From: Natronolimnobius sp. AArcel1 | Lineage (GTDB): Archaea; Halobacteriota; Halobacteria; Halobacteriales; Natrialbaceae | NCBI RefSeq assembly: GCF_011043775.1 | Contig: NZ_JAAKXY010000006.1 | Location: 248,001 to 312,000, forward strand | Direction: 5' to 3' | Length of the DNA: 64,000 nucleotides | Shown: positions 1,934-10,190 of the stretch, piece by piece | Numbering within the stretch: the stretch's first letter is position 1 | Layout of the letters: each line of letters opens with the position of its first letter | Notes under the pieces: model-generated | What the model was told of the DNA's origin: nothing | What the model saw: only the letters and a program-made list of their open reading frames with translations | Databases searched by the model: none | Position numbers and translations under genes: made by a program

Positions 1934-1938
1934 GGTGA
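1934..1938 (+). promoter_or_regulatory. Ribosome binding site of the type IIG gene
   Basis: GGTGA, complementary to the archaeal 16S rRNA 3' end, lies 5 nt before the ATG at 1944. This decides the start: the in-frame GTG at 1935 overlaps the GGTGA itself and is not used. Confidence 0.6.
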
Positions 1939-1943
1939 CAGCT

Positions 1944-4900
1944 ATGAGTCAGGCGACGCTGTCGGATCGGCCATATACGAATTCGAATCTGTTCTCCGGC
2001 CACTATCTCGACGAGCGCGTGCAGGAACGCGAGGAGTGGGACTGTGATGATGAGGCACGGACAGCACTGGATGAATTACAGTCGTTGTACGACCTCGAGT
2101 CCGGACTGGTGGATGGGTACAAGGAAGATGCACTGATAGACAACTGGATCGACGAAGTGCTCGACGTGCTTGGATTCGGGACGAACGTCGAGACGACACT
2201 GCCCGGTGGGGGCGGGTACGTCGATGCGCTGCTATTCGAGGATGCTACGGCGCGTCGCGACGCTGCGGAGGTCTATCTGCGAACTGAGGACACGGCTGAT
2301 CTGTTCGAACGCGGCGTCGGGCTGGTCGAAGCAAAGCAGTGGGACGCCGACTTCACGACTCGATTTAGTGAGCAGCGGCCGTATCGGAACGCCTCCCACC
2401 AGATCAAACACTATCTCGAGCGAACGCCAGAGGAAATCCAGTGGGGCGTGCTGACGAACGGGCGCAAGTGGCGACTCTACGGAACGAACGACTACGAGAC
2501 ACAGACCTACTACGAGGTGGATTTGCCGGAGTTGCTCGAGCACGGCGATCTCGAGGCGTTCAAGTATTTCTACGTCTTTTTCCGCCCCGGTGCATTCCGG
2601 GAGATTTCCGGGACGACCTTTCTGGATTCGGTCTGGTCCGAGAGCGAGACGGTTGCCCAGGAACTCGGGGAGGACTTACAGGACAACGTCTTCACCGCGT
2701 TGCGGGTGCTTGGACGTGGGTTTGCCGAAACGAACGATCTCGATATTGACCCGGACGACGACGAGGAACTTGCGGCGCTGAAAGAGCAGTCGCTGGTGTT
2801 GTTGTACCGGCTGATGTTCGTCCTCTACGCCGAATCGCGGGGGTTGATCCATCCGGAGGGTGGCGACGCCGTCACGGAGTACGAGGACAACTTCAGCCTG
2901 AACGAACTGCGACTCGAGATTCACGAGGAAATCGGCGAGGTCGACGACGGTTTCGACACCTACAGCGAGCACTCGACGACGATGTGGAGTCGGCTCGAGG
3001 ATCTGTTTCGGCTGGTCGACGAAGGCGAGGAGTCGCTGGGGATTCCGCCGTACAACGGCGGGCTGTTCAATCAGGAGAACCACGAGTTCCTGACGAACCA
3101 TCAGGTGAGCAACCGCTATCTCGCGGAAGTCATCTACCGTATTTCGACGACCGAAAACGACGAGGGGCGGTACGTGCTGGCCGACTACGCGGACCTGGAT
3201 ACACGGCATCTGGGAAGCGTCTACGAGGGACTGCTCGAGCATCAGTTCCGAATCGCGCCGGAGGACTACGCGGCGGTGTCGGACGACGGCGGACAGGTTT
3301 GGGAACCTGCAACGGAGGTGTCGGTTGCGGACGCGGTCGAAACCGTCGATGCGGGTGGGCTGTACGTTGTCAACGACGAGGGCGAGCGAAAGGCCACGGG
3401 GGCGTACTATACACCGGACTACGTGGTGACGTACATCGTCGAGGAGACGGTCGATCCGCTGATTGACGAGATTCGGGCGGACCTCCAGGAGCAGGGCTTC
3501 GAGACGGGAACGCACGAGTATCTCGGGGCGTTTTACCGCCGGGTGCTGGATCTGACGATTCTCGATCCGGCGATGGGCAGCGGGCACTTCCTGACGCGGG
3601 CGACGGAGTACCTGGCCCAGCAGGTGATGGAGGAGGTGCGCGAGATCGAGGAGGCGACGGCGTTCGACGAGCAGCGGGTTCGCCGGGACGTGGCGAAGGA
3701 GTGCATCTACGGCGTGGACTTGAACGGGATGGCGGTCGAACTCGCGAAGCTCTCGATGTGGCTCGAGACGCTCGCGGCGGATCAGCCGTTGGCGTTTCTG
3801 GACCACCACCTGAAGGCGGGCAACTCGCTGGTTGGGTCGGACGTGACGGCGGTGCTGTCGAACGGTGCGGAGGCGGACGACGACGGTGGGCAGTTGACCC
3901 TCCAGCAGTCGTTTGCCCGCGTGCGCGAGCAGACGCTGGATCACGTCATGGATCGGGTCCAGGAGTTACTCGAGATCGATAACGAGACGCTCGAGGACAT
4001 CAAGTCGATGGAGGAGTTGTACGACGAGGTGCGAAGCGATCCGTTCTACCAGCGGTTGTTCGAGTTGACGAACGTCCACACGGCGGAGCGATTCGATCTG
4101 GACGTGCCCGAGGGGGCCTACGAGCGGATGGCGGGTGCAATCGACGACGAAGACAAGTGGGCCGACGTGCGCGAAGAGGGCTGGTTCCAATCAGCGCAGG
4201 CGATGGCTGAGGGCGAGGCGTTTTTCCACTGGGAACTCGAGTTTCCGGAGGTCTTCTTTGATCAGGATGGGGAAAAGCGAGCGGATGCTGGGTTTGATGC
4301 GGTGATTGGGAATCCTCCGTATGTCCGCCAAGAGCAAATTAAAGGAGCAACTGAATTGTTCTCAGAATTTGAAGTCTATTCCCCTGCTGCAGACCTCTAT
4401 ACGTATTTCATCGAACAAGGTTACGAACTTCTGGCTGATGAGAATAATTTGGGATATATTGTATCAAATAAATTCACAAAGGCAGAATATGGAAATCCTC
4501 TTCGGAAGTTTTTAGCCAGCAATACACGGCTCAAAACCCTCTGTGACTTCCATGATTTACCTGTCTTTGGTCCTTCTGTCTCGGCATATCCGTTAATAAT
4601 GTCTTTAAAGAAGAGTGAACCCTCTTCCAGCAACGAAGTATCAATTATGAAGATAGATGATTTAGAGTTCAGGAGGTTGCGAGAAAGAGTCGATGAAAAT
4701 AGTGTTCTGATAGAACAGTCCCAATTGAGTAGTGAATCGTGGTCATTATCAAATCCAGAAGCGATTGAATTAACAAATAAAATCAATGGGATTGGCGAAG
4801 AATTAGATCAATACCTAAGTTCGGAAATTTTGAGAGGGATATTAACTGGTTTGAATGAGGCATTTATAATCGGGAAGGATAAATATGACAAGATAGTAGA

Positions 4901-6083
4901 TAATGACCTTAATTCTGAACGTTTCATTGTCCCACTCATGAAAGGACATGATGCAGACCGATATCTATCTGGATTCTCAGATCGCTATCTAATCCGAGTC
5001 CCATCCGGTTGGTCAAAGTCGGCATCTGGAAGAGAATCAGAAGAAGATGCATGGGAATGGTTCGCCTCTGAGTATCCCGGAATCGCAGACCATCTCATTG
5101 AATTTAGATCTGATGCACGCTCACGGTATGACAGGGGAGAATGTTGGTGGGAGCTTCGTCCATGTGACTATTATGACGAATTTGAGTCAGAAAAAATAGT
5201 GTACCCTGAAATTTCAGATGGACCTCGATTCAGTCTTGATATCGATGCAAAGTATACAAATAATAAATGTTTCATAATACCTGTTGAAGATTATGAATTA
5301 CTCGGTATTCTCAATTCATCTGTTGGTGAGTTTTGGGCAAGAAATAAACTTTCCAGCGTTCGTGGGGGGTATCTAGAATACCGAACAGTTCATTTGTCGG
5401 AATTCCCTGTCCCATCTGGAGATGAACCAAAACTGTCTAACGCTGTAGAAAATATAATCGATTTGATTGCAGAACGGCGTACTCTGAATCTCTCTCTTCT
5501 TGACCACTTTGGTTCCTACTCGAATGGAGAAAACCTATCCAATATTGGACTTACTCAACCACCAGAAGGCGTAGCCGACTCCATTCTTAACGATACGACT
5601 AACGAACAAGAGAATCTTCGAATTGGAACTGTTGAGGTCGTTCGTGAGACCACAACATCTCTTGAGATCCAACTCACAGCTCGTTACAAACCTGACGATG
5701 AACTCGAATATGATACTGACCAATGGGGATATACCGAAACTGAACTCTTACCAGCAGTTCATATATCTAATCTCACCAAGACTGAGGCAGATCTCATAGA
5801 GGCCTTTGTTCCTGTCGCTGTTGACGAAGCTGGAGGGTTTGCCAACTTCCGTGAGACAGCCACCAAAACTAATTCACTCATTGACCGTCTTCGGAAACTC
5901 ACACTTCCTGCTGTTGATGACATTTGTTCAGGCCTCAAAAGCTATCTTGAAACAAAAGAACGAGCTGAGGAACTCAACAAAGAAATTGAAAATACAGACC
6001 AACTAATTGATGAAATCGTCTATGAATTATACGAGTTATCAGACAAAGATATTGAGATCATTGAAGAAGCTATTATAGAATAA
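1944..6083 (+). CDS. Type IIG restriction-modification protein (Eco57I-like), mosaic
   Basis: A single 1379-residue chain likely combining endonuclease, N6-adenine methyltransferase and DNA recognition. The N-terminal nuclease shows D94 (GYVDALLF), E129-A-K131 (GLVEAKQW) and a following QIKHYL helix, the D-EXK-Q pattern. Methylase motif I is LDPAMGSGHF at 540-549 and motif IV is NPPY at 790-793, which indicates m6A. The rest is the target recognition region and a C-terminal helical tail. The gene is a mosaic: sampled 60-base lines upstream of NPPY are near 67 % GC (3721-3780), while those downstream are 30-35 % (4741-4800, 4861-4920), with AGA/AGG and A/T-ending codons. The reading frame is intact. 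No other BREX, DISARM or type I genes are nearby. A full-length paralogue lies at 18693. Confidence 0.85.
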   Translation: MSQATLSDRPYTNSNLFSGHYLDERVQEREEWDCDDEARTALDELQSLYDLESGLVDGYKEDALIDNWIDEVLDVLGFGTNVETTLPGGGGYVDALLFEDATARRDAAEVYLRTEDTADLFERGVGLVEAKQWDADFTTRFSEQRPYRNASHQIKHYLERTPEEIQWGVLTNGRKWRLYGTNDYETQTYYEVDLPELLEHGDLEAFKYFYVFFRPGAFREISGTTFLDSVWSESETVAQELGEDLQDNVFTALRVLGRGFAETNDLDIDPDDDEELAALKEQSLVLLYRLMFVLYAESRGLIHPEGGDAVTEYEDNFSLNELRLEIHEEIGEVDDGFDTYSEHSTTMWSRLEDLFRLVDEGEESLGIPPYNGGLFNQENHEFLTNHQVSNRYLAEVIYRISTTENDEGRYVLADYADLDTRHLGSVYEGLLEHQFRIAPEDYAAVSDDGGQVWEPATEVSVADAVETVDAGGLYVVNDEGERKATGAYYTPDYVVTYIVEETVDPLIDEIRADLQEQGFETGTHEYLGAFYRRVLDLTILDPAMGSGHFLTRATEYLAQQVMEEVREIEEATAFDEQRVRRDVAKECIYGVDLNGMAVELAKLSMWLETLAADQPLAFLDHHLKAGNSLVGSDVTAVLSNGAEADDDGGQLTLQQSFARVREQTLDHVMDRVQELLEIDNETLEDIKSMEELYDEVRSDPFYQRLFELTNVHTAERFDLDVPEGAYERMAGAIDDEDKWADVREEGWFQSAQAMAEGEAFFHWELEFPEVFFDQDGEKRADAGFDAVIGNPPYVRQEQIKGATELFSEFEVYSPAADLYTYFIEQGYELLADENNLGYIVSNKFTKAEYGNPLRKFLASNTRLKTLCDFHDLPVFGPSVSAYPLIMSLKKSEPSSSNEVSIMKIDDLEFRRLRERVDENSVLIEQSQLSSESWSLSNPEAIELTNKINGIGEELDQYLSSEILRGILTGLNEAFIIGKDKYDKIVDNDLNSERFIVPLMKGHDADRYLSGFSDRYLIRVPSGWSKSASGRESEEDAWEWFASEYPGIADHLIEFRSDARSRYDRGECWWELRPCDYYDEFESEKIVYPEISDGPRFSLDIDAKYTNNKCFIIPVEDYELLGILNSSVGEFWARNKLSSVRGGYLEYRTVHLSEFPVPSGDEPKLSNAVENIIDLIAERRTLNLSLLDHFGSYSNGENLSNIGLTQPPEGVADSILNDTTNEQENLRIGTVEVVRETTTSLEIQLTARYKPDDELEYDTDQWGYTETELLPAVHISNLTKTEADLIEAFVPVAVDEAGGFANFRETATKTNSLIDRLRKLTLPAVDDICSGLKSYLETKERAEELNKEIENTDQLIDEIVYELYELSDKDIEIIEEAIIE

Positions 6084-6093
6084 ATCCGGCGCT

Positions 6094-6561
6094 CTATGAA
6101 GGTTTTTCAAGGCCGAATTTTGAAATTGCATCTCTCTTTTGTCTTTCATCTGCTACACGTTGTAATCCATGTGGATGATAGATGTCTTCGTATCCAAGAA
6201 CATCATTCACCTCACTAACACTTATGTCGACTTGTTGAAGGTCAGAGATAATATATATGAGTTTGCGATTTGCGCTCTTTTCTCCCCAATAGTCTTCTGC
6301 GAATAAATCCGTCTTGCATGTCGCCTGAATTATTCCACCAGCAACATATCGGCCTTTGTCTACTCCATAGAGAAATACATAGTCTCCCTTATCAATAGAT
6401 TCAAATATGTCTCTATTTTGTTGTCCGTCATTACTACCCCACACTCGGGCAGTACTCGGTATGTCATCTGGTAGGGAAGAATGATTGGAAAGGTCAATAG
6501 GTGTAGCAACTGTCGTTTGAAAATCTTCATTTACTGTATCAAGAAAGATATCTTTCCACAT
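6094..6561 (-). CDS. EVE/PUA-like domain protein, putative modified-base reader
   Basis: A 155-residue, AT-rich gene converging on the type IIG gene with 10 bp between the stops. Residues from about 35 show the EVE/PUA-like pattern found at the N-terminus of modification-dependent restriction proteins: ARVWGSNDGQQN, then IDKGDYVFLYGVDKGRYVAGGII, then DYWGEKSANRKLIYIISDL and a final GLQRV. Such domains flip out and bind modified bases; here no nuclease or NTPase is attached. The ATG at 6561 is preferred to a TTG at 6594. It belongs to the same low-GC block as the specificity half of the type IIG gene, so it probably arrived with it. Domain family fairly likely; role is inference. Confidence 0.55.
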   Translation of the reverse strand: MWKDIFLDTVNEDFQTTVATPIDLSNHSSLPDDIPSTARVWGSNDGQQNRDIFESIDKGDYVFLYGVDKGRYVAGGIIQATCKTDLFAEDYWGEKSANRKLIYIISDLQQVDISVSEVNDVLGYEDIYHPHGLQRVADERQKRDAISKFGLEKPS

Positions 6562-6632
6562 TTTGTTTCGATTGAAAATAGGTGTGGGATCCAATAAATC
6601 CTTTGTGTCATAGTAACTCGAGCTTTTATTCT

Positions 6633-6707
6633 GCCATCTACCGGGGCGTACGAGACATCCTCGAGACCAACGCGCGAGTCGACGAACCCGAGGAAGCCGT
6701 TAGCTAG
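6633..6707 (+). pseudogene. C-terminal remnant of a truncated gene
   Basis: GC-rich sequence reads AIYRGVRDILETNARVDE and ends PEEAVS then TAG. Upstream in the same frame the composition becomes AT-rich and there is no plausible start. It looks like the 3' end of an older gene whose 5' part was replaced when the AT-rich block between about 4310 and 6630 came in. The parent family is not recognised. Confidence 0.35.
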
Positions 6708-6777
6708 TAGCCGTCTAAAAACAACCCGGACAAAAAACGAAATCGTCACCTCCCAATCCTGATTCCCCAGATCAGCC

Positions 6778-6936
6778 CTACTCGTCGAACTCGAGAGCAG
6801 GCGGAATAACCCGACAGCCACACGGGCTGGCGGTGCCAACCGCTGGCTCGGAGACGACGGTGACGACGACGGCTTCGCCACAGGAGGGACACTCGGGGAA
6901 TGAGTGGCCTGATTCCTGATCGCGTTCGGTCGTCAT
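6778..6936 (-). CDS. Small CPxCG zinc-finger protein
   Basis: A 52-residue acidic peptide starting MTTERDQESGHSFPECPSCG and ending in PALEFDE. Two cysteine pairs, CPSCG at residues 16-20 and SPCGCR in the second half, would bind one zinc ion. Such mini zinc-finger proteins are common in haloarchaea and usually act as regulators or adaptors; the partner is unknown. ATG start; GC-rich with genome-like codon use, unlike the AT-rich genes just to its left. Confidence 0.6.
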   Translation of the reverse strand: MTTERDQESGHSFPECPSCGEAVVVTVVSEPAVGTASPCGCRVIPPALEFDE

Positions 6937-6998
6937 CGCTCCTCGAGCATGATGGCGGTCGCTGGTGATTCGTGTCGATACGTCACTCGTGCGGGATG

Positions 6999-7006
6999 TT
7001 TATATC
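6999..7006 (+). promoter_or_regulatory. TATA box before the structured RNA candidate
   Basis: A TTTATATC box within GGGATGTTTATATCCCGG. By archaeal spacing the transcript would start near 7027, just before the run of hairpins and about 270 nt before the next start codon. Confidence 0.45.
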
Positions 7007-7027
7007 CCGGTAGAATGTACGGATTCA

Positions 7028-7112
7028 TGGCTTCAAGCCGTTCGGCTGGAAGCCCGTCTCGGGTGTCACACCACCCGGGGCATTTGCGTACCCCCGCGGA
7101 GACCGGCTTCCG
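7028..7112 (+). ncRNA. Candidate structured RNA with a three-way junction
   Basis: Downstream of a good TATA box the sequence folds into nested helices. A small hairpin AGCC-GTTC-GGCT spans 7036-7047. An outer stem of GGAAGCC and GTCTC (7048-7060) pairs with GAGAC and GGCTTCC (7099-7111), with only one C-C mismatch. Two inner hairpins sit inside it: GGGTG/CACCC (7061-7076) and GGGG/CCCC (7077-7094). No convincing reading frame crosses it. It matches no RNA I recognise (not tRNA, SRP, RNase P or a clear H/ACA layout). The alternative is a mobile-element end or the vapB leader. Confidence 0.4.
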
Positions 7113-7198
7113 TGTAATTTGTTGACTGGTTGTGACTTATATCTACTGGTGCGCGTGGTAATTCGGCTCCGTGTGACTGGCCTCGAGATGGGGGGCTT

Positions 7199-7222
7199 GC
7201 TCGAGTCATGCCGTACTCGAGC
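7199..7222 (+). repeat. CTCGAG palindrome with conserved spacer, copy 1
   Basis: Arms GCTCGAGT and ACTCGAGC flank the 8-nt spacer CATGCCGT. The same arms and a near-identical spacer recur at 8269-8290, and a degraded copy lies at 10191-10214. CTCGAG alone is common here, but the shared spacer suggests common descent. Confidence 0.4.
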
Positions 7223-7276
7223 CGGTGGCTGTCCGGGACTGGTTCTGCAAGTGAAATCACCAGTAAGATCTTTGCG

Positions 7277-7296
7277 TTTGTGTATGTATACACAAA
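7277..7296 (+). promoter_or_regulatory. Operator of the vapBC operon
   Basis: A perfect inverted repeat, TTTGTGTAT and ATACACAAA separated by GT, ends 2 nt before the vapB ATG. Antitoxins of this class autoregulate by binding such palindromes, so this is the likely operator; a protein sitting here would block a leaderless start. Confidence 0.6.
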
Positions 7297-7298
7297 GT

Positions 7299-7577
7299 AT
7301 GGGGACGAAAACCATCGGCATCCGAGAGGACGTCTATGAGCGGTTGAAGGCTCGAAAACGAGAGGATGAGAGCTTTACAGACCTGATGAACCGCATATTG
7401 GACGACACGACTGTCGATTGGCGTGAGGGCTTCGGAACACTCTCCGACGACGACGCTGCGGAACTCGAGCAGATCGTTGCGGACTCCCGTGACCACACGA
7501 GTGATGGGCTTTCCGGACGACAACAAGAGGCGCTGGATGAGTTCGCGGAGATAGAGGCAGACGATGAAACTGCTTGA
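7299..7577 (+). CDS. vapB: VapB-type antitoxin
   Basis: A 92-residue antitoxin. The N-terminus MGTKTIGIREDVYERLKARK followed by ESFTDLMNRIL is the ribbon-helix-helix-like DNA-binding head of archaeal VapB proteins. The rest is a glutamate-rich tail that would wrap the toxin. It overlaps the toxin gene by 14 nt, a sign of translational coupling. The start is set by the ATG directly behind the palindromic operator, although the frame is open further upstream. Neutralises the PIN ribonuclease downstream. Confidence 0.8.
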   Translation: MGTKTIGIREDVYERLKARKREDESFTDLMNRILDDTTVDWREGFGTLSDDDAAELEQIVADSRDHTSDGLSGRQQEALDEFAEIEADDETA

Positions 7578-7965
7578 TACAACGTTCCTTATCCACTATT
7601 GGGCAGGACGAGAGGCGGTTAAAGACTATCTTGAAACGCATGAAGAAGCGGAGTTTGTGACCACGACACTGAACATCAAAGAAATTGCCGTGGGACGGGA
7701 ACTACAAGGGAAACTTGATCCAGTTGAGATTCAGTCACAGTTTGAGTGGATGACTATCCTCCCGTTTCAGCTGGAACATGCCGTCATTGCTGGCGAGTTA
7801 GAAGCGGCGTTTCACCGGGATGAAACGGTGAATCAGGACAAAATAAATTCCTTCTCCGGAGATTTACTGATCGCCGCCGTTGCGAAAGCAGCAGGGGCAA
7901 CAGTTGTCACGCGAAATATGGACGACTTCGAGCAATTCGATGGCGTCTCTGTCGAGTCGTATTAG
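7564..7965 (+). CDS. vapC: VapC toxin, PIN-domain ribonuclease
   Basis: A 133-residue PIN protein likely cleaving tRNA or rRNA with Mg2+ when free of VapB. The acidic site is complete: D5 in MKLLDTTFLIHY, a Glu in NIKEIAVG, Asp in SGDLLIAAVA, and Asp in TRNMDDF near the C-terminus. It overlaps vapB by 14 nt. Its length and motif spacing are normal, so it looks active. It sits among mobile remnants, typical of toxin-antitoxin pairs in accessory DNA. The substrate cannot be told from sequence. Confidence 0.85.
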   Translation: MKLLDTTFLIHYWAGREAVKDYLETHEEAEFVTTTLNIKEIAVGRELQGKLDPVEIQSQFEWMTILPFQLEHAVIAGELEAAFHRDETVNQDKINSFSGDLLIAAVAKAAGATVVTRNMDDFEQFDGVSVESY

Positions 7966-8147: not shown

Positions 8148-8255
8148 TTGTATCCCACAGCACGACTGCACATCGGTGAACTCGTGAAACGCATTGATAC
8201 GACGCTGCAGCAACACCACGGACGACATCTCTCGGGCGAAATCATCGACGCCTGA
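8148..8255 (+). pseudogene. 3' gene fragment, copy 1 (intact C-terminal frame)
   Basis: Reads LYPTARLHIGELVKRIDTTL, then QQHHGRHLSGEIIDA and TGA. There is no start and no upstream coding sequence of the same gene. The same fragment appears at 9988-10082, damaged. The family is not recognised; the conserved stop and frame show it is the tail of a real gene. Confidence 0.5.
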
Positions 8256-8268
8256 ACGGTTCCCTACA

Positions 8269-8371: not shown

Positions 8372-8632
8372 TTACTCGAGCGCCTCGAGACGCTCTTTGA
8401 CAGCCGCTTCGGAAAGTTCGCTCAACGGCGTATCGTCACTATCATCGCCAGCCTCATCCTCGTAAGTGAGACTAATCCACCCCGACTCGTGGGCGGCCTC
8501 CGCATCAGGACGCCGTAGCAGGGGTGAGTAACCCGTTGCAAGCCATCGATGACGATCCATCTCATCGCCACCCGTATTGCGGCCGTCCGAACGGGAGTGT
8601 TGGCTCATACTGTCAGTATTGCGCTGGCGCAT
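8372..8632 (-). CDS. Small acidic protein downstream of the ART-like gene
   Basis: An 86-residue protein with an N-terminal RHRWLATGYSPLLRRP stretch, then SGWISLTYEDEAGDD and an acidic helical tail EAAVKERLEALE. It starts 20 nt after the stop of the gene at 8653, on the same strand, so the two form a unit. A second ATG at 8608 is possible. It has no recognised family. An immunity or antitoxin role for the putative ADP-ribosyltransferase is only a guess from order, size and charge. Confidence 0.5.
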   Translation of the reverse strand: MRQRNTDSMSQHSRSDGRNTGGDEMDRHRWLATGYSPLLRRPDAEAAHESGWISLTYEDEAGDDSDDTPLSELSEAAVKERLEALE

Positions 8633-8652
8633 GAAAAGTCTTCGGTAGCGTA

Positions 8653-9780
8653 CTACTCTTTGGCTGTCGACTCCTCGAGCGAGTGCGCTGAGCCTGAGAC
8701 TGGGTCCGTGATTGACTCGACGAGTTGTCGCGCGAGACGTCGCTTTGTTCGACTATAGAGTGCCTGTTGGCGAAGGATTTCGACCCACCGTTCTAGCCGA
8801 CGTGCGCCCGTTTTCGTTCCCGGCTGAACATCCTTCTCGTATGCGAGATTCACAAGGCGAAATAACTGATCATGAACGCGTTCGCTCTGCTGATTCGAAT
8901 TAATCGCTTCAGCCACTAACCGAGTAAGTGGAACCCACATATCGTCATTTTGGAGCGTGTAGACCACTGACCGTTCGTCGAGTATAACCTTCCCACCACG
9001 GAGATGGTATTCGTCTGAATATGGAGTACTGCCGGTTCGAAGCTGATCAACTGCCATCATGATTTCCGTCGTCGGAATACAAAAGCTAAAGACGATGTTC
9101 GAGCCGATGTCGACCGCTGGTGCCTTTGAGGGCGTGGCGTTCAAAACAGTATCAGCATCGATCTTGAAATAGTTACGTTCAGGTTCATCGAGAGTCTGCG
9201 CGAACAGTTCAGCGGCCGTTCGATTCCGTACACCGCGATAGACAGTTATCCGACCACCGTTCTGGACACGAAGTAATCCTTGCGTCACGTGATAGAGCGA
9301 CTGGACTACTCCCATTGTCTCCGATGTGAACGGGCCAGCTGGAGGACGGGGCCCATTTGGGCGTGTCCGAATAGACGTTTCCAATCCGAACGTCGTTCGA
9401 TAGATGCGCTCGAGTTCCTGCGGCGCAGGATACGACGGATCACTTGATTTCTTCCACTGCTCGAGAAGAGAGAGCACGTACTCTACCGCTCGAGTAGATT
9501 CCCGGAGTTTGAGTGATTCGTGGAGTTCATCTCGAGCGTCGGTTGCTAATCGAACGAACGCAGCCTGTCCTGGTTCAGTGACTGACGCTGGTGGAACGTA
9601 CTTTTGCGGATCAGACTGTGTGAGATCGATATTGTATTCGTTTTCGATTACGTCTGGCTCTGCTTCCGGAATCGGTGCGAGTGGGTGACTCGAGTCAAGC
9701 GTATACTCACGCGATAGCGAGAGTGGATCGGCTGCGTTCGTGATATCCGCTATTTTGTCTCCGTCGTCCTCGTCACCCAT
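8653..9780 (-). CDS. Possible ADP-ribosyltransferase-fold protein
   Basis: A 375-residue protein. Residues 1-170 are acidic and helical without a known motif. Residues 176-270 resemble the mono-ADP-ribosyltransferase fold of phage and conflict-system enzymes: R182 in GGRITVYRGVRN (NAD-binding strand), N214-A-T-P-S218 in place of the S-T-S strand, SNIVFSFCIPTTEIM, and E257 in YSDEYHLRGGKVIL as candidate catalytic Glu. The C-terminus is basic and helical. The upstream region is filled by two palindromic elements, so its promoter may have been changed by insertion. Coupled to the small acidic gene at 8372. The ART call rests on motif order only and could be wrong; it is otherwise uncharacterised. 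Confidence 0.4.
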   Translation of the reverse strand: MGDEDDGDKIADITNAADPLSLSREYTLDSSHPLAPIPEAEPDVIENEYNIDLTQSDPQKYVPPASVTEPGQAAFVRLATDARDELHESLKLRESTRAVEYVLSLLEQWKKSSDPSYPAPQELERIYRTTFGLETSIRTRPNGPRPPAGPFTSETMGVVQSLYHVTQGLLRVQNGGRITVYRGVRNRTAAELFAQTLDEPERNYFKIDADTVLNATPSKAPAVDIGSNIVFSFCIPTTEIMMAVDQLRTGSTPYSDEYHLRGGKVILDERSVVYTLQNDDMWVPLTRLVAEAINSNQQSERVHDQLFRLVNLAYEKDVQPGTKTGARRLERWVEILRQQALYSRTKRRLARQLVESITDPVSGSAHSLEESTAKE

Positions 9781-9800
9781 GGTTGTTAGCTACGGATTTC

Positions 9801-9884
9801 TATAGTAACAACTGAAACGGTTTACACACCAATCGCGTAGCCGTCATGCGATTGGGTGTGCACTGACTTTCAGTGGCTACTATA
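9801..9884. mobile_element. MITE-like palindromic element A
   Basis: An 84-bp imperfect palindrome. The left end TATAGTAACAACTG matches the complement of the right end (TATAGTAGCCACTG) at 12 of 14 positions. The arms continue through CACACC and CAATCGC to a loop at 9837-9847. It has no coding capacity. The termini are the same as those of element B, in opposite order. It lies 20 bp before the ART-like gene's start. Confidence 0.6.
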
Positions 9885-9936
9885 GTGTTAGTATAAAGAA
9901 CCCAGCCAAACGAACAGACTGTATTGTAGTACCACC

Positions 9937-9986
9937 TATAGTAGCCACTGCAAGTGAGTGTGTACATAGTTGCAGTTGTTACTATA
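9937..9986. mobile_element. MITE-like palindromic element B
   Basis: A 50-bp palindrome. TATAGTAGCCACTGCAA at 9937-9953 pairs with TTGCAGTTGTTACTATA at 9970-9986. Its two ends are the same pair of termini as element A but inverted, so A and B face each other. The outer ends of A and B form a perfect 14-bp terminal repeat around 9801-9986, and A and B may be parts of one 186-bp unit. The right edge abuts the damaged gene fragment at 9988. Confidence 0.6.
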
Positions 9987-9987
9987 T

Positions 9988-10082
9988 TTGTATCCCACAG
10001 CACGACCGCACCATTGGCGACCTCGTGAAACGCATTGATACGACGCTGCAGCAACATCACGGTCGAAATCATCGACGCCTGA
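9988..10082 (+). pseudogene. 3' gene fragment, copy 2 (damaged)
   Basis: Closely matches 8148-8255 but with a one-base insertion near CCGCACCATTGGC and a 14-nt deletion before CGAAATCATCGACGCC and TGA. It starts directly at the edge of MITE-like element B, which may have truncated it. Together with copy 1 it flanks the ART-like gene unit. Confidence 0.5.
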
Positions 10083-10190
10083 GCGGCCACTCCTACCGAT
10101 CTGGCACCCATGGTACCGCTCGAGTCTCTCACCGGACCTGAGACACGGTTGGATCTTCTGTGAGAGGGTCAGCACTCGAGCAGCCCCCAT

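Follow-up and report, generated by a model that had tools for sequence, protein, structure and literature searches.

Toxins of the ADP-ribosyltransferase (ART) fold that are accompanied by immunity proteins are well known in bacteria, and ADP-ribosylglycohydrolase is the enzyme that reverses arginine ADP-ribosylation. In Tre1-Tri1, a type VI effector ART is paired with an ADP-ribosylglycohydrolase immunity protein (6dre, 6drh), and Tri1 protects against Tre1 by sequestration as well as by cleavage of ADP-ribose (PMC7827354). An ART of the R-S-E class beside an ADP-ribosylglycohydrolase is also found in the polymorphic-toxin ARTs with Imm-ARG (PMC3482391), the Listeria ART-ARH pair (8za7), and the Aeromonas phage ART-ARG pair (PMC9503650), and DraT-DraG likewise unites the two enzymes in one system. 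Tne5-Tni5 consists of an ART-fold toxin followed by a downstream neutralizer (PMC13285283), and ARTs of the Alt/VIP2 type are packaged in the heads of tailed phages or fused to MuF (PMC9503650). Most immunity-protein superfamilies have been reported to be absent from archaea (PMC3482391). The present analysis concerns two adjacent genes of the haloarchaeon Natronolimnobius sp. AArcel1, located in a stretch of 64,000 nucleotides (positions 248,001 to 312,000 of contig NZ_JAAKXY010000006.1; hereafter, the window). The two genes probably form a toxin-antitoxin or toxin-immunity module, in which an ART of the R-S-E class is held off by a small acidic partner. The first-pass annotation had proposed an undescribed haloarchaeal toxin-protector pair; the predicted ART fold, the conserved partner, and the hydrolase neighbors of some relatives support the pair, while the flanking gene fragments to which that annotation also pointed seem irrelevant to it. 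The features of the unit are as follows.

8653..9780, minus strand: predicted ART-fold toxin gene, 375 amino acids (aa), from the open reading frame (ORF), a family profile match, and a structure model
9235..9237, minus strand: codon of R182, the predicted NAD-binding arginine on strand beta1 (VYRG)
9124..9141, minus strand: NATPSK (residues 214-219), putatively equivalent to the S-T-S element found in ARTs of the R-S-E class, as judged from its alignment column
9010..9012, minus strand: codon of E257, the predicted catalytic glutamate at the start of strand beta5
8372..8632, minus strand: gene of the small acidic partner (86 aa), a predicted antitoxin or immunity protein

The sequence analysis of the 375-aa protein confirmed VYRG (residues 180-183), NATPSK, and DEYHLRGG (residues 256-263) in the ART order noted earlier. 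Motifs as short as these could by themselves be coincidental. However, R182 and E257 are unchanged in 17/17 aligned members, whose overall identity to the window copy is about 20%, and the window protein was retrieved at an E value of 3e-53 by a profile from which it had been excluded; hence, the motifs are not a matter of chance. The protein thus has the arginine on beta1 and the catalytic glutamate before beta5 that are characteristic of the R-S-E class. Conservation at NATPSK is not strict, most members having N-[FHYA]-[ST]-x-[S] in the family alignment. The window protein gave no significant match in Pfam, PADLOC, PHROGs, NCBIfam, or the PDB sequences, nor did the aligned-family profile match any PDB sequence, and none of the first four libraries names the family.

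Tertiary structure prediction, the check that had been suggested for the ART assignment, was carried out with AlphaFold2 on nine sequences and gave a model with a predicted local distance difference test (pLDDT) score of 81 and a predicted template modeling (pTM) score of 0.80. It showed an ART core at approximately residues 70-285 and a C-terminal helical part. On alignment of the model with solved structures by VIA-align, the best rows were almost all ARTs (Z ≤6.2 over ∼160 residues, within 70-285 of the model), among them CDTa, VIP2, Iota, C3, the Listeria pair 8za7 (Z 6.1), and Tre1-Tri1 6dre (Z 5.0). The ART of the relative at locus L050, modeled from 22 rows, reached a pLDDT of ∼95, and 49 of its 50 best solved-structure rows were annotated ARTs; the remaining row was anthrax lethal factor, a protein that contains an ART-like domain. 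The models agree in predicting the split beta-sheet fold of ARTs for the 375-aa protein. This assignment rests on the uniformity of the structure lists and the invariance of the two catalytic residues rather than on any single Z score.

The partner gene lies 20 nt downstream of the ART gene on the same strand and, as annotated earlier, encodes an acidic protein of 86 residues (23% D+E, 12% K+R). It has no Pfam match and is unnamed in curated libraries. Absence of the small gene beside homologues had been named as evidence that would count against a pair; at 14/14 free-standing loci, however, a partner is the next downstream gene on the same strand, separated from the ART gene by 20-188 nt. The partners are of 79-106 aa at seven loci (the window, L010, L011, L049, L050, L013, and L014) and of 166-220 aa at the other seven (L012, L045-L048, L015, and L026). 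The larger class (∼190 aa) adjoins one ART clade in the maximum-likelihood (ML) tree (support 90/90), and its representatives from L012 (positions 4279-4857) and L015 showed no match in Pfam. Most cases of this class are from one genus (g45), in which the ART is present in several species.

Partner profiles were built with one subgroup left out, against a background of 1254 ORFs. Apart from that of the window, the left-out partners were regained at E values of 3e-9 to 6e-4, far above the background. A conserved adjacent small partner gene, supported by these profiles, is the arrangement of type II toxin-antitoxin and toxin-immunity systems. In several leave-out runs the ∼190-aa partners were the best background matches (E 0.013-0.14, weak but repeatedly top-ranked), which tentatively suggests a short segment, VDL...W, common to both classes; when all small partners, that of the window among them, were combined in one profile, the scores of the ∼190-aa partners did not exceed background. 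When partner type was mapped on the ML tree of the ARTs, four changes were required, which is the minimum, and none of 200 shuffles gave a value as low. The ratio of nonsynonymous to synonymous substitution (dN/dS) in close pairs was 0.11-0.21 for the toxin and 0.17-0.29 for the partner, indicating purifying selection on both.

The family is patchily distributed in haloarchaea. As species were sampled with a limited first look in the genome searches, the following frequencies are lower bounds. The window protein as query identified relatives in 8/391 genomes of the class (one later rejected) and the family profile in 9/391, at E values of 5e-20 to 5e-6 and 1e-141 to 1e-21, respectively. Members were found in 4/125 genomes of the taxonomic family to which the window belongs and in 4/170, 1/26, and 5/28 genomes of three other families, and a phylum sample of 295 genomes yielded no further members outside those families. 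The rejected match (G362/L016, E 6e-4) is limited to a C-terminal stretch of 63 residues in an HsdR_N-like protein of another kind, which the family profile missed. Pattern scans of genome contigs with the window protein, scans of viral contigs with the window protein and free-standing relatives, and a tblastn search of phages with the window protein detected no relatives. An annotated example is present on plasmid p163 of Halorubrum sp. BOL3-1, where it is labeled a hypothetical protein. The ML tree placed the window ART on a long branch of unsure position and the virion and membrane-fused ARTs on a branch apart from the free-standing ones (support 93/88).

Besides loci with a small or ∼190-aa partner, members of the family occur together with a partner and a hydrolase, as part of a conjugation-like protein, and within head-gene clusters of tailed viruses. 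At L013 and L014 the operon order is ART, small partner, and ADP-ribosylglycohydrolase (PF03747, E 7e-66 and 6e-61), and the TDDT and DADT motifs of both hydrolases are intact. At L027 and L051 the ART forms the C-terminal end of a 2007-aa membrane protein, the gene of which lies downstream of that for a VirB4-like ATPase (AAA_10); a hydrolase protein of 476 aa (PF03747, E 3e-76) comes after it. The fusion regions are located as follows.

L027, 57-7448: 2007-aa fusion region
L051, 6404-16852: 2007-aa fusion region

The arrangement resembles a haloarchaeal polymorphic toxin linked to conjugation; judged by eye, the part of the 2007-aa protein that precedes the ART looked kinase-like. The hydrolases match the DraG model TIGR02662 (E 4e-42) and the Tri1 model NF041672 (E 4e-36 to 6e-41). 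The likeness of the N-terminal extension of the L027 hydrolase to the small-partner motif was not significant. The presence of adjacent hydrolases provides independent support for the ART reading.

The viral members were recognized through PHROG 24083 (HCTV-1 ORF109), which was matched by 7/10 relatives at E values down to 2e-9. Among 916 viral ORFs the family profile scored HCTV-1 ORF109 and HCTV-5 ORF114 at 93 bits each and HCTV-1 ORF107 at 70 bits, the next best being 7 bits; HCTV-16 carries a copy that is 99% identical. The viral ART genes sit between the portal or gpF gene and that of the major capsid protein, and HCTV-1 ORF109 additionally has a Zeta-toxin domain. HCTV-1 ORF107 and HCTV-5 ORF109, both placed before gpF, have an N-terminal module in common (61% identity, E 5e-19).

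L053, 17967-19994: HCTV-1 ORF107, shared-module gene
L073, 2223-3191: HCTV-5 ORF109, shared-module gene

HCTV-5 ORF109, annotated as an ADP-ribosyltransferase, was rejected as a family member for want of sequence membership; its C-terminus carries instead the ART domain recognized by Pfam (PF03496, E 5e-10). Two ART domains that are unlike in sequence thus replace each other on one carrier, and this swap provides further independent support for the ART reading. The shared module (...DPT.EAPNRWTN.ETGEHRYQE.KPGSSE), which is also present in HCTV-1 ORF109, may serve as a tag for packaging into heads. The gene position suggests that the viral ARTs would be packaged into heads, an argument made from gene position for phage ARTs as well (PMC9503650), and matches in the BFVD database include MuF and minor capsid proteins. 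The presence of an ADP-ribosyltransferase in HVTV-1 and HCTV-5 has already been listed (PMC8651126).

Compared with Tre1-Tri1, the window family shares the R-S-E ART fold (VIA Z 5.0-5.4), and a part of it likewise adjoins a hydrolase matching NF041672, although this hydrolase scores far below the cut-off of that model. There is no sequence-level match to Tre1-Tri1 and no secretion signature at the free-standing loci, and L013 and L014 would have blocking and reversal in separate genes, the window having the small partner only. The polymorphic-toxin, Listeria, and Aeromonas phage pairs resemble some of the relatives in gene content; the haloarchaeal family differs from them in being archaeal, in having an extra small partner family, and in using several partner types for one ART family. 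Domains homologous to the window ART lie in the HCTV-1 and HCTV-5 head-gene clusters, similar to the Alt/VIP2-type ARTs, whereas the ART of the window is free-standing and has a partner, and the family, unlike HCTV-5 ORF109, is unmatched by PF03496. The arrangement of Tne5-Tni5 is like that of the window pair; however, Tne5 uses a lysine and can do without its glutamate, whereas arginine and glutamate are invariant in the haloarchaeal family. Membership in DarT-DarG was rejected, as that system has a macrodomain antitoxin and the 86-aa partner matches no Pfam family.

It is likely that the free ART would use nicotinamide adenine dinucleotide (NAD+) to ADP-ribosylate an essential cell component, leading to growth stop. 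The target may be an arginine, given that ExE or DxE is present in most relatives and that some of them adjoin an arginine-type ADP-ribosylglycohydrolase. The partner would bind the ART and hold it inactive, and in some relatives the hydrolase would form a second layer that undoes the modification, comparable to Tri1 against Tre1, where both activities reside in one protein. Blocking and reversal may thus be split between separate genes in this family, with the window having blocking alone. The ART activity would be freed if the partner were lost, as upon infection or loss of a plasmid, or if the ART were delivered into a cell that lacks the partner.

Several observations weigh against such a module at the window. 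Foldseek found no significant match in the PDB (best E 0.19-0.27), and the VIA Z scores stay near 6, a single Z of 5-6 being modest. The window partner is the weakest and most divergent match of its family (E 0.048 with the leave-out profile), though it ranks above every unrelated ORF of the 1254. In a joint model of the L050 ART and its partner, made by artificial read-through of the in-frame stop as a modeling device only, the partner had a pLDDT of 30-70 and no confident interface was obtained; with few partner rows, this model is uninformative. No hydrolase gene is present at the window locus, so immunity by an ADP-ribosylglycohydrolase does not apply there. Finally, R-S-E ARTs are expected to have E or Q at position 6 of the ADP-ribosylating turn-turn (ARTT) loop (E/Q-x-E; PMC7827354), and the alignment places S255 at this position, two residues before E257, in the window copy; most relatives have E and two lineages have D. 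The transferase specificity of the window copy is uncertain because S255 replaces E/Q, and NAD hydrolysis is possible for it because a serine stands two residues before the catalytic glutamate.

S255 is also what gives substance to the alternative that the protein is an ART-fold NADase toxin, acting mainly by NAD+ hydrolysis (cofactor depletion and abortive infection) without ADP-ribose transfer, with a partner that blocks the NAD pocket. A precedent exists in Tne5, an ART-fold NAD(P) glycohydrolase toxin whose immunity protein has been modeled as plugging the cleft (PMC13285283). Nevertheless, most relatives keep ExE or DxE, and at three kinds of loci an ADP-ribosylglycohydrolase accompanies the ART, an enzyme that would serve no purpose if the toxin were a pure NADase; this alternative is considered unlikely. 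It is still less probable that the unit is a captured or decayed delivered effector, i.e., a remnant of ART cargo of a virus or plasmid with its immunity gene, kept for immunity and no longer a working toxin. Homologous ARTs in the HCTV-1 and HCTV-5 head-gene clusters and on the conjugation-like protein, and the unrelated repeats and transposable-element-like copies around the window unit, are in line with such an origin, yet the window gene has its full length and retains the catalytic arginine and glutamate, purifying selection acts on close relatives that belong to other subtypes, and the virion and membrane-fused ARTs fall on a separate branch (93/88). A reversible regulatory ADP-ribosylation similar to DraT-DraG, with the ART as a metabolic switch on a host enzyme and the small gene as its regulator, is very improbable: the DraG-type hydrolase at some loci (TIGR02662, E 4e-42) and one weak match to DRAT (E 0.17) are outweighed by the absence of a match to DRAT (PF07357) in the window protein and every other member, the lack of any nitrogen-fixation context seen, the extra small partner, and a patchy spread, plasmid and mobile surroundings, strong divergence, and virion and membrane-protein fusions that fit conflict genes rather than housekeeping control.

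Beyond the toxin-partner module itself, a wider scheme can be put forward as a tentative possibility. One haloarchaeal ART family would serve as a shared warhead with interchangeable delivery and protection, host pairs like that of the window being domesticated or counter versions of virus or plasmid weapons, and the partners would provide immunity against incoming ARTs as an undescribed antitoxin family with a short VDL...W motif. Genomes of haloarchaea, a plasmid, a conjugation-like system, and the head-gene clusters of viruses are connected by a single unnamed ART family, in which the partner type shifts with the toxin lineage. The family is therefore a clean set for studying how blocking and reversal of ADP-ribosylation divide between genes, and it allows one to ask whether archaea deploy pairs of this kind against viruses equipped with the same enzyme. 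The genetics of Haloferax and Haloarcula and the HCTV isolates make these questions testable.

The surroundings of the unit comprise the following repeats.

8148..8258, plus strand: copy A of a duplicated 35-aa gene tail, incidental
9988..10086, plus strand: copy B of this gene tail, with a disrupted reading frame, incidental
9800..9885, no strand assigned: palindromic element of 86 bp with TATAGTA ends, resembling a miniature inverted-repeat transposable element (MITE), with ∼42 genome copies of ∼80 bp or more

The two copies of one gene fragment between which the unit had been described are real, being 90-96% identical in pieces and without further copies in the genome. The repeat encodes just the 35-aa tail of a gene, LYPTARLHIGELVKRIDTTLQQHHGRHLSGEIIDA, for which neither a parent gene nor a plasmid match was found. 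It was treated as incidental because neither copy falls within the pair and no similar feature was noted at the relatives. The MITE-like element, which ends ∼20 nt upstream of the ART start codon and of which a second, partial copy is located at 9936-9986, is a neighbor outside the conserved unit; it may carry or change the promoter of the toxin gene. Positions 1935-7965 of the window encode a type IIG restriction-methylase (Eco57I, TaqI_C), an EVE-like protein of 166 aa (phrog_14240, E 3e-12), and a VapB/VapC pair, and the ART unit stands in a defense-rich stretch.
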